IMG/VR virus record: IMGVR_UViG_3300028840_001741
Span: 1 to 20,283 of that record
Direction: 5' to 3' (one strand)
Length of the DNA: 20,283 bases
Source of the DNA: a virus
Part shown: one piece after another, positions 4,796 to 17,574 of the stretch
Layout of the letters: each line of letters begins with the position of its first letter
Position numbering within the stretch: position 1 is the stretch's first letter
Notes under the pieces: model-generated
Seen by the model: only the letters and a program-made list of their open reading frames with translations
Databases searched by the model: none
Told to the model about the DNA's origin: nothing
Made by a program: the position numbers and the translations under genes

Positions 4796-7165
4796 TTAAT
4801 AGCCCTTTAAGTTGCCGGCGTCCGCGTTGGTATTACGCCCGCCAAATACCAGTGTCGGCGGCTGCTTTTGGTTTGCCGGGTCGGTATTTTCGGCAATCTC
4901 TTTCGTGTTGTCGGCGGTTTCCTCCGCCGCACTGCCTAGCCGGGCCATCAAGTCTGTTGGGTTGCGAGCCTGGTTCGATATGCCCTGCATCGCCGCAACC
5001 TGCGCGTCGGCGAGAAAAGCGCCGGCCTCGCGCCTGCCGAGGTCGAGTAAACCCCCCATGTCGCCCGCGCTTTTTTCTTTTTTGTTACCCGGATAATGCC
5101 GCAACCATGTCAGTCCGCCCGTCGGTATACTATCCTCGACCGACTCCTTGAACGCCCCGGCAAACTCCTCGCCCGCCTTTTTCCCCGCTTTGCGATGTTC
5201 CTCCGGTACGCCATATATTTCTTCCCAGTCGATTGCTAACTTGACCTCGCCTAAACTTTCGCCCAATTCGACTATTTTCGGCCTCCCGCCTTTATCCCCC
5301 ATTAGGCTTGCCCGCCGGTTGCGCTCGATTGCAGACGCGCCATCGGACAGTATAGCCCCGCTCGGCATATTGGTCATTTGGTTTATTCGCTGTCTGATTT
5401 TTGCTTGTTCGTCCAGCAGGTCGGCCCGGCTATCCAGAAGCCGACGACGTTCCCTCCAGCCGAAGTGCGTACCCCATACGGAGCTTAGAGATTTGTCTAT
5501 GCGTTCCTGCACCTTCTCGATTTGCTCGTCCAGGTCGCGTACCTGGCTTTCCATTTCCAGGATAAGCCCTTGCTGCATTGTGTCAATCAGCCCGCTAAAC
5601 GCGCCTGCCATCGCCTCGACCTCGCCGGTCGCCGCGTTTATGCTAACTCCAAAATCTCCATACTTACCCGTCAAGTCGGCCAGCAACGCTCGCGCCTCGG
5701 AAAGCTGCTCGTTATTCAACTGCCCGGCTTCCGCCAACTGCCTTAATCGACGCGCCTTTTCCATATCGGCGCTAGCTGCCGCTTCCGTTTCTGCGCGGGC
5801 GTCCTGCAAAGTCGCAATATACTCTTGCTGCTGGTCGGCAAGCTCGCCGACGCTCGTGGTATTGCGGTCGATAACCTCACGCAGCATAAAGAACGCGCCG
5901 ACGGCCAGCGCTATCACACCAGCAGGGCCGCTCAGCAGGCTTAACGCAACGCCCAGCGATTTCACTGCGGCAATCACCTTGCCGAACATCATTACCAAGC
6001 CGCCCGCCCCGATGAGCAGCGGGCCCAGGACTATCAATGCGCCTGCCACTACGGTTAAGGATTTTGCCAGCCATTGATTTTGCTTGAGCCATTCGGTTAA
6101 CGGGCCGAGAACGCCGGTGATAAACTTGGCCGCCGATTCCAGCACAGGAGCAAGACCCTCGCCAAGCGCAATAACTACGCCCTCGACGGCAGACCATAAG
6201 CGCCGCAACGTCCCCCCGATTCCGGCGTCCATCTTTGCGGCAGTTTCCGCCGCCCGCCCGTCGGCGTTTGCGATAGCATCGGTCAACGCATCAAACGATC
6301 CGCTCGCCAGTTTTGCGCCACCGGCAATAGCCCGCTGGCCGAACAATTCCTTCATCTTCGCCAGGCGTTCCGGCGCGGTGAGTTTTGCCGCCTCGATTCC
6401 AAACTCCCGCATAATATCTGCCAGCGGCCTGAACTCCCCGGTTGCATCCGTGACGGCAACGCCCATCTCGCGCATTGACTCCTGCACCTTGGTATCGGCT
6501 AGCTGCGTCATTATCCGGCGCAACATTGCACCCGCCTGCGAACCTTTTATCGAAAAATTGGCAAGTATGCCGATAGTTTCCGCCGTCTGCTCAAGCGACA
6601 GCCCCATCTCGTCCGCAACCGGCCCGGCGTAGGTCATAGCTTCGGCCAGATCGTCGATAGTCTGAGCCGATGAATTAGCCGTCGCGACAAGTACATCGGC
6701 AATCCGTGTCACGTCCTTGGCCTCAAGCCCGAAAATGCGCATTGTCCCCGCAGCGATTTCCGAGGCGCGAGCCAGCTCGATGCCCGTCGCCCTAGCCAGA
6801 TTAAGCACATCGGCGGTCGAGGCCAGTATTTCCGTCGTCTGGAAACCCGCCCGGCCCAACTCCGTCATGGCCCCCGCCACCTGCGAAGCTGTAAACGATG
6901 TGGTGCGCCCTAGTTCTTTTGCCTGTTCCGTTAACGCCTCAAACTGCTCTCCGGTAGCGCCCGTAACCGCCTGCACCGTGCGCATCTGGTCGTCGAATGA
7001 CGCAAACTTCATCGTGATTCCGGCGATTGCCGCGCCAGCAACCGCCCCGATTCGCGTTAGCGTCGCCCCAAAGTTGCGCATCGCGCGGCCCGCCCGCTGG
7101 AGCTTCGCCTGAAAACCCGTATCGTCGAGTTCCATGCGATAATATATATTCGCGGCTGTGCGCAT
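4796..7165 (-). CDS. Tail tape measure protein (TP901 family)
   Basis: At 789 residues this is the longest gene of the window. Residues about 54-330 match the TP901-type tape-measure core, with FDDQMRTVQAVTG (57-69), TSFTASQVAGAMTELGRAGF and the SIKGSQAGAMLRRIMTQLA patch (205-223). A strongly hydrophobic stretch at about 368-428 is the usual membrane-active segment. Residues 440-560 are coiled and Ala/Glu/Gln-rich. The protein sets tail length and may help DNA entry. At roughly 0.15 nm per residue the tail would be near 120 nm, a rough estimate. The start overlaps the chaperone T-frame stop as TAATG with AGGA upstream, the standard arrangement. Confidence 0.93.
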   Translation of the reverse strand: MRTAANIYYRMELDDTGFQAKLQRAGRAMRNFGATLTRIGAVAGAAIAGITMKFASFDDQMRTVQAVTGATGEQFEALTEQAKELGRTTSFTASQVAGAMTELGRAGFQTTEILASTADVLNLARATGIELARASEIAAGTMRIFGLEAKDVTRIADVLVATANSSAQTIDDLAEAMTYAGPVADEMGLSLEQTAETIGILANFSIKGSQAGAMLRRIMTQLADTKVQESMREMGVAVTDATGEFRPLADIMREFGIEAAKLTAPERLAKMKELFGQRAIAGGAKLASGSFDALTDAIANADGRAAETAAKMDAGIGGTLRRLWSAVEGVVIALGEGLAPVLESAAKFITGVLGPLTEWLKQNQWLAKSLTVVAGALIVLGPLLIGAGGLVMMFGKVIAAVKSLGVALSLLSGPAGVIALAVGAFFMLREVIDRNTTSVGELADQQQEYIATLQDARAETEAAASADMEKARRLRQLAEAGQLNNEQLSEARALLADLTGKYGDFGVSINAATGEVEAMAGAFSGLIDTMQQGLILEMESQVRDLDEQIEKVQERIDKSLSSVWGTHFGWRERRRLLDSRADLLDEQAKIRQRINQMTNMPSGAILSDGASAIERNRRASLMGDKGGRPKIVELGESLGEVKLAIDWEEIYGVPEEHRKAGKKAGEEFAGAFKESVEDSIPTGGLTWLRHYPGNKKEKSAGDMGGLLDLGRREAGAFLADAQVAAMQGISNQARNPTDLMARLGSAAEETADNTKEIAENTDPANQKQPPTLVFGGRNTNADAGNLKGY

Positions 7166-7440
7166 TACAGTCCTGCCATCAATTCTTCGGTACTCATTCG
7201 CTCGTACTTATCGCCGTCCGACGATTCGGCTCCCGCAAACGGGCTGAGCTTATCCAGCAGCGGGGCAATCTTTCCCGGCTTGATACCTTGTATTGACGCT
7301 TCGTACATCATACTCATGCACTCCCGATGCCAGGCGACCTTCGCCTTTTGCTGCAACGCATACAACGTGTACGGCCACGGCTCTACCCCGGCAATTCCGG
7401 CGTAGTATCGCCGGATGTCGGCAATGGTGATGCGGCTATC
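7165..7440 (-). CDS. Tail assembly chaperone second frame (gpT-like, made by frameshift)
   Basis: This frame overlaps the end of the gpG-like gene and runs to the tape-measure start, ending in TAATG. From about 7440 the peptide looks real: ITIADIRRYYAGIAGVEPWP followed by YTLYALQQKAKVAWHRE, as in gpT-type domains with a PW motif. Upstream of that the same open frame (to 7602) is low-complexity Gly/Asp and reads like a shadow. No convincing start codon or ribosome site lies near 7440, so expression by a -1 shift from gpG is most likely. One possible slip is at GGG before the gpG stop (CCG GGG TAG, 7391-7383), giving a 259-residue fusion. The exact slip point is not established; the start given here is where the domain appears to begin. 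Confidence 0.65.
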   Translation of the reverse strand, partial: DSRITIADIRRYYAGIAGVEPWPYTLYALQQKAKVAWHRECMSMMYEASIQGIKPGKIAPLLDKLSPFAGAESSDGDKYERMSTEELMAGL

Positions 7441-7943
7441 TGCTGTTCTGTCGCCTCTATCGCCGGTTCGATTTCGGCCTTCAACCTCGCGGTCACAGCC
7501 GTCTGTATTCGCGGAACAATGCCCAGTACACTCTCGGCCATCGCCCGTATCGCCGCCGCCGCCTTCACCCCCGTGTCCGCCGCACCTTCGGCACTTGACC
7601 ACAGGGGCATTACCTCGAAAAAAGCCGACAGCCCATTAACAAACGCCTCTTTAATCACACTGAACTCGCCGGGCTGTAAAGCTTCCAGGTCGAGACTGAA
7701 CTCCGTATCACTCGCCGCCGTCCACCGGCCCTTGCTGTTGACTTCTATCAGGCCAAAGGTTTCTTCGGCAAAACGCCTGCCGGGTTCGATTAACGGCGCT
7801 ATTTGTGTGAGCAACTCGTCTATCGTTGCGGTTTCCAGCTTCGCTCCGAACGGCGTCTGTCGCATCGCGCCGAAGCTCATATTGAACCGATACAAATTAT
7901 TGCTTAACCGAAACTCGCCGTTAGCTAATGCCTGCGCGCTCAT
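7383..7943 (-). CDS. Tail assembly chaperone (gpG-like)
   Basis: The 186-residue protein lies just upstream of the tape measure, between the major tail protein region and the overlapping T frame, which is the classic gpG position. The N-terminal half is a compact mixed domain (LYRFNMSFGAMRQTPFGAKL, then alpha-rich); the last 25 residues (SPLPTSGDTTPELPG) are a Pro/Thr linker-like tail, as expected upstream of a frameshifted extension. The start overlaps the previous stop as ATGA. It is expected to coat the tape measure during tail assembly and to be absent from the finished virion. Function rests on position and the overlapping frame, not on a sequence motif. Confidence 0.7.
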   Translation of the reverse strand: MSAQALANGEFRLSNNLYRFNMSFGAMRQTPFGAKLETATIDELLTQIAPLIEPGRRFAEETFGLIEVNSKGRWTAASDTEFSLDLEALQPGEFSVIKEAFVNGLSAFFEVMPLWSSAEGAADTGVKAAAAIRAMAESVLGIVPRIQTAVTARLKAEIEPAIEATEQQIAASPLPTSGDTTPELPG

Positions 7944-9972: not shown

Positions 9973-10322
9973 CGCTGTAATACTCCCCTGACGCGCACAC
10001 TCGCGCCAATCGGGTCATAATCCTCTCCGGCGTCGGCGGGTACGGCATAAGTCCTGCTGGCAAAAGTCAGCACGTCACCGTCACGCGGATAAAACCAATC
10101 GCCGGAAACGTCGGCGGGCCGAATCAACCAGGATTGCCGTACTTCACTTATCACCACGCCCTCGCTCTCATTGACCGTTTCGGGGATTTCCGGTATAGCC
10201 AGCGAATAAGACCAAGACTCCGCACCGCGCGTACACGTCAACTCGCCGACTCCCATCGTGCCTTTTTGCCGGCCATGAAGCGTCTCGGACAGCGAATCAA
10301 ATGTAGGCGGCGTGCGCGTCAT
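9969..10322 (-). CDS. Head-tail stopper-like protein
   Basis: The 117-residue protein has a beta-barrel-like C-terminal half: SWLIRPADVSG, then FYPRDGDVLTFASRTYAV ending with a conserved-looking DYDPIGASVRVRGV. A Gly-Asp turn before a hydrophobic strand is typical of head-closure (stopper) proteins. It lies directly before the terminator-like gene, as in lambda-like neck modules. It overlaps both neighbours by ATGA. The assignment is based on layout and order. Confidence 0.55.
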   Translation of the reverse strand: MTRTPPTFDSLSETLHGRQKGTMGVGELTCTRGAESWSYSLAIPEIPETVNESEGVVISEVRQSWLIRPADVSGDWFYPRDGDVLTFASRTYAVPADAGEDYDPIGASVRVRGVLQR

Positions 10323-10510
10323 ATTACAGGCTTGCCTCCGTCGGATGCTACGAGGAACGCGCCCAGCGCCGGGGCAAGATATTTAACAGCCTCGGCCACC
10401 CATCCGAAAGCGGAAGGCGCTTCCTCACCGCCGCCGAAACCCGTGGTCACTACGGCCAGCGCCGCAAGAATAAGGCCGATTCCTGTCCATGTCGATTTTT
10501 GCAGTTTCAT
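10319..10510 (-). CDS. Small two-segment membrane protein, holin-like
   Basis: The best start is the ATG at 10510, with AGGAG 8 bases upstream; a longer in-frame start at 10666 would only add a shadow of the neighbouring frame. The 63-residue product has two hydrophobic stretches, TGIGLILAALAVVTTGF (9-25) and VKYLAPALGAFLVA (42-55), linked by a short acidic turn (GGGEEAPSAFG). Such a hairpin suits class II holins and other small phage membrane proteins. It follows the lipoprotein/frameshift gene after a 26-base gap, so it may belong to the same lysis or envelope cassette. No endolysin is present in the window, so the lysis role is inferred. Confidence 0.6.
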   Translation of the reverse strand: MKLQKSTWTGIGLILAALAVVTTGFGGGEEAPSAFGWVAEAVKYLAPALGAFLVASDGGKPVI

Positions 10511-10536
10511 TTTCAATCTCCTGTCGGGAAACGGCA

Positions 10537-10701
10537 TTACCCGCTTCCACGGCTCTTGCGTTTTGTAAATATCCTGTGTAGGAACCACGTCAGTAGGCCG
10601 ATACCCAAAGCGGCCAGCCCGCCGAACCCTGCGGCAGCCGCTATTCTGGCTGCTGTGATTCCCCATTCTGCGGAGCCGTTGGTTCCGACTCCGCAGATTG
10701 G
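10537..10701 (-). CDS. -1 frame transmembrane extension of the lipoprotein gene
   Basis: This frame opens at a TGA just upstream of the A AAA AAC heptamer and ends at TAA 10539-10537. It has no ATG, GTG or usable TTG near its beginning, yet encodes 54 residues that look like a real membrane anchor: a short polar lead (PICGVGTNGSAEWG), about 22 hydrophobic residues (including FGGLAALGIGLLTWFL), and a basic end, HRIFTKRKSR. The positive-inside rule puts the C-terminus in the cytoplasm. Added to residues 1-80 of the lipoprotein it gives a 134-residue protein with an outer-membrane lipid and an inner-membrane helix, like unimolecular spanins such as T1 gp11. Translation by programmed -1 frameshift is strongly suggested but unproven. 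Confidence 0.72.
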   Translation of the reverse strand, partial: PICGVGTNGSAEWGITAARIAAAAGFGGLAALGIGLLTWFLHRIFTKRKSRGSG

Positions 10702-10940
10702 TTTTTTAGTACATCAGTTCCACCGTCGTCGGCGTTATTGATTACAACAGCGGCATTGCCGCCCGCCACTTCACCGGTCTGTAAGTCCTCGGCCCGCGTC
10801 TCGCCTATGCTCGCTGCGCCCGAAGGACCGTCCTGGTCGATAAAAGTAATGTACGCCTGCCCGCCGACGCCGGCACAGCCGACCATCGCCGACAACAACA
10901 CGGCCAATAACGTCCAGATTAGTAATCGCATCGCGCTCAT
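10641..10940 (-). CDS. Envelope lipoprotein, spanin-like, with programmed frameshift site
   Basis: The 99-residue zero-frame product starts with MSAMRLLIWTLLAVLLSAMV and a lipobox-like MVGC; C22 would be lipidated by the host. The mature part is short, acidic and Gly/Asp-rich, without further motifs. The start at 10940 has AGGGAG about 7 bases upstream. At codons 78-80 the gene contains A AAA AAC, followed by a stem-loop (separate entry), so some ribosomes should switch into the -1 frame and add a transmembrane helix. The unshifted product would be a free outer-membrane lipoprotein (o-spanin-like); the shifted one would be a u-spanin-like protein. Lysis is the likely role, but no endolysin gene lies nearby and the lipobox is not ideal. 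Confidence 0.75.
   Translation of the reverse strand: MSAMRLLIWTLLAVLLSAMVGCAGVGGQAYITFIDQDGPSGAASIGETRAEDLQTGEVAGGNAAVVINNADDGGTDVLKNQSAESEPTAPQNGESQQPE
10667..10707 (-). promoter_or_regulatory. -1 ribosomal frameshift signal: A AAA AAC plus stem-loop
   Basis: The heptamer A AAA AAC lies at 10707-10701 in the correct phase of the lipoprotein gene (CTA AAA AAC). Three bases later TCTGCGGAG (10697-10689) pairs perfectly with CTCCGCAGA (10675-10667); the stem can grow to 12 pairs with one G-U, leaving a 7-base loop. A slippery heptamer followed by a stable stem is the classic -1 signal (for example MMTV, dnaX and IS elements). The loop bases GGAACCA (10686-10680) are complementary to TGGTTCC at 10587-10581, so a long-range pseudoknot is possible but speculative. 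The 3-base spacer is shorter than the usual 5-9, which partial melting would correct. Confidence 0.78.
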
Positions 10941-10949
10941 AACATCTCC

Positions 10950-11219
10950 CTATGTTGCCGCAGCTATCGCCCTGGCGATTTGCTGCGCAGTTAACATGCC
11001 CGCGCCGAACCCAAAACCTATCGACGCGCAAATCAAACCGACCGTCCAGTATTTAGCCTTGGCAACCCACTTAACCGCAGGACACCGCATGTAATAGTTA
11101 TACATCCACGCCTCCAGCGTTTTCTGTGCCGCTATCTCGGCGATTTGACTAATCACCGCCTTCTGGCCTTCGGTAAACTCGCCGTATTCCTGCAATTTGC
11201 CGGGATATTCTTCGTTCAC
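10950..11219 (-). CDS. Small single-span membrane protein, 89 aa
   Basis: The gene starts with GTG overlapping the preceding TGA, with GGGAG upstream. Residues 1-45 are polar and helical (MNEEYPGKLQEYGEFTEGQK...), then a basic patch (VKWVAKAKYW) leads into one transmembrane helix, TVGLICASIGFGFGAGMLTA (59-78). This suggests N-terminus inside. It is immediately upstream of the lipoprotein gene and could be part of a lysis or superinfection-exclusion cassette. I cannot name a family; an XhlA- or holin-like role is possible but unsupported by motif. Confidence 0.6.
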   Translation of the reverse strand: MNEEYPGKLQEYGEFTEGQKAVISQIAEIAAQKTLEAWMYNYYMRCPAVKWVAKAKYWTVGLICASIGFGFGAGMLTAQQIARAIAAAT

Positions 11220-17439: not shown

Positions 17440-17500
17440 GCTACTATTGTAACCGAGAATTGCGGCCCAACGCGTTTACGGCCATACGCGCCCCGCAAAT

Positions 17501-17531
17501 GTCCCCCTGTGACCCCCCGCGTCCCCCTGTG
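17501..17531. repeat. Direct repeat GTCCCCCTGTG, two copies, 20-bp period
   Basis: Identical 11-bp copies lie at 17501-17511 and 17521-17531, in the 135-base gap between the large terminase stop and the next gene. The stretch is G-rich on the transcribed strand. Such phased repeats next to packaging genes could be protein-binding sites, but no known cos or pac signature was recognised. Confidence 0.6.
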
Positions 17532-17574
17532 GCCGTTAATTTTTTTTACTTTCTTGGTGAAAAGTTCTTGCAGC

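Follow-up and report, generated by a model that had tools for sequence, protein, structure and literature searches.

A candidate −1 frameshift site in a phage lipoprotein gene and a spanin-like fusion as its possible product

Spanins and chaperone frameshifts

Phage infection ends with the fusion or disruption of the outer membrane by spanins, proteins whose amount and timing have to be regulated. The u-spanins, of which 13 unrelated families are distinguished, carry by definition a lipoylation signal at the N-terminus and a membrane helix at the C-terminus (PMC6139136). One u-spanin, the 133-aa T1 gp11 (phrog_1804), is encoded by a single uninterrupted ORF next to the holin and endolysin genes; its N-terminal lipobox contains Cys22, and a basic tail follows its C-terminal membrane helix. 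The known two-component spanins are encoded by separate genes, which are embedded, overlapped or separated (PMC6139136). Kongari et al. (2018) suggested, speculatively, that u-spanins may derive from o-spanins by extension past the stop codon, with gain of a C-terminal membrane helix (PMC6139136).

The lambda G/GT tail chaperone yields long and short products from one start codon by means of a phased AAAAAAC or GGGAAAC heptamer and a hairpin. This −1 frameshift in phage tail-assembly-chaperone genes was reportedly described by Xu and colleagues in 2004 (cited in PMC3556154 and PMC3483164). The chaperone frameshift of phage phiCbK uses AAAAAAC (PMC3556154). Known links between frameshifting and lysis include the MS2 lysis gene and a Lactococcus phage lysin encoded by overlapping genes (cited in PMC10885494); these are different mechanisms or genes. 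The publications examined that join spanins and frameshifting concern chaperone frameshifts or overlapping separate spanin genes. In agreement with the preliminary description of this locus, which knew of no described spanin made by frameshifting, none was found in the open-licence literature searched, an absence that is no proof.

The material analyzed here, referred to as the window, is the full 20,283-base IMG/VR virus record IMGVR_UViG_3300028840_001741, which may be a fragment; the virus appears to infect bacteria. The minus strand carries a densely packed late operon for the terminase subunits, portal, a ClpP-like protease, a probable capsid protein, a 400-aa protein and an 89-aa membrane protein, followed by a lipoprotein gene, a gene for a 63-aa membrane protein, the head-tail and tail genes, and the tape measure gene. 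The capsid and head-tail names are given by position, without family match. From its sequence, the lipoprotein gene very probably undergoes programmed −1 frameshifting. The features of the locus, in the direction of the minus strand, are as follows.

10950–11219, minus strand: upstream neighbour, encoding 89 aa with a single candidate membrane helix at the C-terminus
10641–10940, minus strand: 0-frame gene for a 99-aa lipoprotein with signal peptide and lipobox MVGC (Cys22)
10719–10727, minus strand: weak anti-Shine-Dalgarno complement (CGGTGGA region), about 11 nt 5′ of the heptamer, a possible stimulator
10701–10707, minus strand: slippery heptamer A AAA AAC, in phase
10667–10697, minus strand: 12-bp hairpin, 3 nt past the heptamer
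10537–10701, minus strand: −1 frame continuation, 54 codons and TAA (PICGVGTNGSAEWGITAARIAAAAGFGGLAALGIGLLTWFLHRIFTKRKSRGSG), with a transmembrane helix and a basic tail
10319–10510, minus strand: downstream neighbour, encoding a small membrane protein of 63 aa that resembles a holin in appearance only

The lipoprotein gene and its slippery site

The lipoprotein gene is preceded by a GGGAG Shine-Dalgarno-like sequence and begins with the signal peptide MSAMRLLIWTLLAVLLSAMVGC. Residue +2 of the lipoprotein is Ala, which is compatible with outer-membrane sorting in Proteobacteria. The lipobox agrees with the published pattern of the CPT spanin finder, [ILMFTV]-[not REKD]-[GAS]-C (PMC7660901). 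The mature 0-frame product would comprise 78 aa and has an acidic, Gln/Pro/Ser-rich end (NQSAESEPTAPQNGESQQPE); the AlphaFold model is of low confidence except for the signal peptide, beyond which the protein is mostly unstructured. This product resembles o-spanins such as lambda Rz1: it too is a short lipoprotein, and its tail contains some Pro. Unlike in two-component spanins, no partner resembling Rz, with a membrane helix at the N-terminus and a coiled coil, was recognized.

The codons at the slip are CTA AAA AAC (L78, K79 and N80). The 3 nt spacer (10700–10698) is shorter than usual for a canonical site and leads into stem arms at 10697–10686 and 10678–10667, which pair with one G-U around a 7 nt loop, the outer 9 bp being perfect Watson-Crick. 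Thus, the phased heptamer at 10707–10701 and the 9-bp stem, extendable to 12 bp, that had been reported 3 bases downstream of it were both confirmed. The 61 nt segment containing the hairpin has a minimum free energy of −28.2 kcal/mol (z = −6.95). The 35 nt hairpin itself has an energy of −23.4 kcal/mol, and none of 5000 dinucleotide shuffles was as stable. It is the strongest of 6741 minus-strand positions in the window, none of the others reaching −23.4 kcal/mol. In-phase XXXYYYZ heptamers occur 22 times in all genes of the window and lead beyond the 0-frame stop in three cases: the lipoprotein site, a tail-chaperone candidate, and an AAAGGGC with a weak hairpin.

Other roles for these elements were considered. 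The hairpin was rejected as a terminator because no U-run follows the stem, and the only Rfam match, an antisense one to RybB, was sub-threshold (19.8 bits versus a cut-off of 40). An internal Shine-Dalgarno stimulator was also rejected, as the pairing of the complement is equalled at 13% of coding positions and is not significant. By eye, complements of the loop are seen downstream, with which a pseudoknot could form.

For comparison with other sites, we screened 87 records blind (5673 ORFs in 1.09 Mb): the window itself, loci from distantly related phages, and a single MAG contig from Thermoplasmatales. Phased heptamers whose −1 frame extends at least 90 nt past the stop were collected and ranked by hairpin strength. 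Among the 145 heptamers with such a long extension, the lipoprotein site ranked fifth. Seven other sites had hairpins of −21.8 kcal/mol or better, four of them with the AAAAAAC heptamer, and five of the seven are tail-assembly-chaperone sites: L075, L013, L041 and L059 match phrog_313, and L044 is assigned by its near-identity to L041. Since most equally strong sites belong to this known class of frameshifts, we count the lipoprotein site as supported. The remaining two, L081:19481 and L016:17996, are themselves strong candidate −1 sites with AAAAAAC and hairpins of −23.3 and −21.8 kcal/mol; their genes matched no PHROG or Pfam family and are probably tail chaperones, by position.

The lipoprotein cassette shares with lambda G/GT the phased heptamer and hairpin and would likewise give long and short products from one start, but it differs in gene, position and product, and the window has a candidate chaperone site of its own. 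This candidate lies at 7165–7943 on the minus strand, where a chaperone frameshift is expected, with the heptamer T TTT TTC at 7623 in phase in a 186-aa gene, a hairpin of z −2.6, and a 150-codon −1 frame running up to the start of the tape measure gene. It has no family match and is named by position.

The −1 frame and the predicted fusion protein

The first codon of the −1 frame is CCA at 10701, whose C is read twice, and the frame ends with TAA at 10539–10537. A TGA closes it three codons upstream of the slip; therefore, the slip lies inside the stretch of about 24 codons where it can work. The frame contains no ATG, GTG or TTG start, and a separate start was rejected, as it could use non-standard codons only. 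These results bear out the earlier account of a −1 frame without a start codon that encodes a transmembrane helix and a basic tail and ends at 10537, as well as the lengths given there for the lipoprotein (99 aa) and the fusion (134 aa).

A membrane helix of this kind is rare in shuffled sequence. The best 19-mer of the fusion helix has a KD value of 1.85, and when the −1 tail was shuffled, only one of the 3357 stop-free versions reached 1.8; a hydrophobic stretch together with a basic tail was found in none of these open shuffles. A lipobox, a phased heptamer and a −1 membrane helix coincided in one other case in 1.07 Mb, a junk ORF. AlphaFold without an alignment predicted the −1 piece to be helical at residues 12–24 and 26–48 with modest confidence (mean pLDDT 65).

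Codon usage was compared in the two frames. From the slip to the 0-frame stop, the 0 frame is coding-like (2.9% of off-frame pieces score as high) and the −1 frame is atypical, falling below 99% of coding pieces; the weight of this test is limited, since the sequence is also under constraint from the stem. Past the 0-frame stop, the codon usage of the −1 frame is intermediate. Codon usage thus neither proves nor excludes −1 coding. That ambiguity past the stop leaves some room for chance: the lipoprotein gene could be an ordinary one, the stretch behind it non-coding or expressed separately, and the heptamer, hairpin and hydrophobic −1 frame coincidental. We regard this as most improbable, as several rare features coincide, the blind screen places the site among mostly known ones, the hairpin lacks a terminator U-run, and the −1 frame has no usual start for separate expression. 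An assembly or sequencing error is also quite improbable. In that case the true run would consist of seven A's, and a single 134-aa u-spanin-like ORF would be read with no frameshift at all. A six-A homopolymer in an uncultivated-virus contig is a typical place for such errors, but the codon content from slip to stop favors the 0 frame over the −1 frame, opposite to what an error predicts, and the hairpin, which is the best on its strand, would have to be a coincidence.

The +1 frame is also open across the cassette. This ORF of 115 codons (10319–10666, minus strand; ATG at 10666) merges into the 63-aa gene and is probably spurious, as AGGAG precedes the inner ATG at 10510.

In the predicted 134-aa fusion, K79-N80 is followed by P81. 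Behind the Cys22 lipobox lie about 76 acidic residues, predicted to be periplasmic, then the helix at about 99–121 and a basic tail, the last 16 residues carrying a net charge of +5. The helix is alanine/glycine-rich and moderately hydrophobic, and its approximate insertion energy of +0.55 kcal/mol is borderline, versus −3.6 kcal/mol for T1. Cys83, in the putative periplasmic part, is encoded only past the slip. A periplasmic Cys occurs in none of 58 surveyed u-spanins, which is an observation and not part of their definition (PMC6139136).

The fusion resembles T1 gp11 in size, in the position of the lipobox Cys and in the order of lipobox, membrane helix and basic tail. In contrast to T1 gp11, it needs a −1 frameshift, its helix is weaker on two scales, it has the extra Cys83, and a truncated lipoprotein form would exist beside it. 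No T1-family homology was detectable with the HMM, as 1196 of 2000 shuffles scored as high, and a weak T1 similarity (E 0.45) was rejected because it failed this test. Nor was there a PHROG or Pfam spanin match, the T1 family alone having been tested in detail. Homology to a known u-spanin family is not required, because the u-spanins comprise unrelated families.

By analogy, a spanin-like role of the fusion is probable. With moderate confidence, we suggest that it works like a u-spanin; we do not file it as a member of the class because of the missing homology, the weaker helix, the extra Cys and the lack of a recognized endolysin. The spanin-like fusion put forward in the preliminary description has fared unevenly: its frameshift part is supported by the anatomy, the chance tests and the blind screen, while for its spanin part it is topology and size that speak, and the lack of T1-family homology, the lack of an endolysin in the window and the additional periplasmic Cys speak against it.

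The same observations bear on a rival, in which a real −1 frameshift yields a lipoprotein tethered to the envelope with a different task; it may serve in superinfection exclusion, control a neighboring holin-like protein or provide a second membrane anchor. The evidence for frameshifting is stronger than that for function, the missing spanin homology and endolysin, the weak helix and the extra Cys would all fit, and the adjoining genes encode small membrane proteins of unassigned function. We nevertheless consider this unlikely, because an N-terminal outer-membrane lipid and a C-terminal inner-membrane helix in about 134 residues correspond to the definition and size of u-spanins (PMC6139136), and because its neighbors in the late region encode small membrane proteins, a setting in which lysis genes are often found.

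For a spanin-like fusion made by frameshifting, the following course is conceivable. From one start codon in the late operon, most ribosomes would reach the 0-frame stop and produce the 99-aa (78-aa mature) outer-membrane lipoprotein. A minority would be held up by the hairpin while Lys- and Asn-tRNAs occupy A AAA AAC, slip one base back and add 54 residues to give the 134-aa protein. In this protein, Cys22 would be lipidated in the outer membrane and the C-terminal helix would sit in the inner membrane with its basic tail in the cytoplasm, so that the fusion could bridge the envelope as a unimolecular spanin and aid outer-membrane disruption at lysis. The short form may dilute the fusion or pair with it. 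Taken whole, the explanation that a frameshift makes both the lipoprotein and a membrane-bridging, spanin-like fusion is modestly favored; that this constitutes a one-gene spanin system, with a free lipoprotein and a unimolecular bridging form in a set ratio, is favored by only a little. The explanation draws on a single genome and assumes a host with an outer membrane.

Genomic setting and relatives

Small membrane proteins flank the lipoprotein gene on both sides, and neither the 89-aa nor the 63-aa neighbor matched any of the families searched. With the −1 frame, translation would end just ahead of the next gene, whose AGGAG Shine-Dalgarno sequence directly follows the −1 frame stop. Without it, a gap of 130 nt would remain where most neighboring genes abut or overlap; the gap alone is no proof of −1 coding, because the window contains another of 135 nt (17440–17574). 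No endolysin was recognized in the 20 kb of this possibly fragmentary record.

Relatives were sought with scans that need short exact peptide matches, so moderately diverged ones can be missed, and near-identical records may not have been returned. IMG/VR was scanned with the fusion, the capsid, portal, terminase and protease proteins, the 400-aa protein and a 311-aa protein from the tail region. The terminase and protease also served as queries against GTDB genomes, and INPHARED was searched with these two, the fusion, the tape measure and the tail-tube protein. No relative of the lipoprotein gene was found in these three collections, and the searches gave only distant matches, at about 20–44% identity, for the terminase, portal, protease and tape measure. 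Its terminase, only about 20–28% identical to anything found, marks the virus as an orphan. The gene order around terminase, portal and protease is similar to that of Akkermansia phage Moulinsart, in which no comparable lipoprotein was found.

If the proposed explanation is true, the ratio between the bridging and the non-bridging form would be determined during translation by frameshifting, a kind of spanin control that was not described in the open-licence literature searched. The locus would then represent a frameshift-controlled lysis component in a tailed phage and a new way to make outer-membrane-bursting proteins. It would also provide a natural intermediate for the route from o-spanin to u-spanin that Kongari et al. 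could not document (PMC6139136), and spanin finders that consider single ORFs would miss a class.

Two further observations lie elsewhere in the window. About six 24-bp units (TGCCACTATCTCCCGACGTTGAAG) are repeated in tandem at the extreme end of the record (1–148). At 1345–1761 on the minus strand, a 138-aa protein weakly matches IF2_N (E 2e-5, slightly below the curated cut-off), the N-terminal region of translation initiation factor IF-2.
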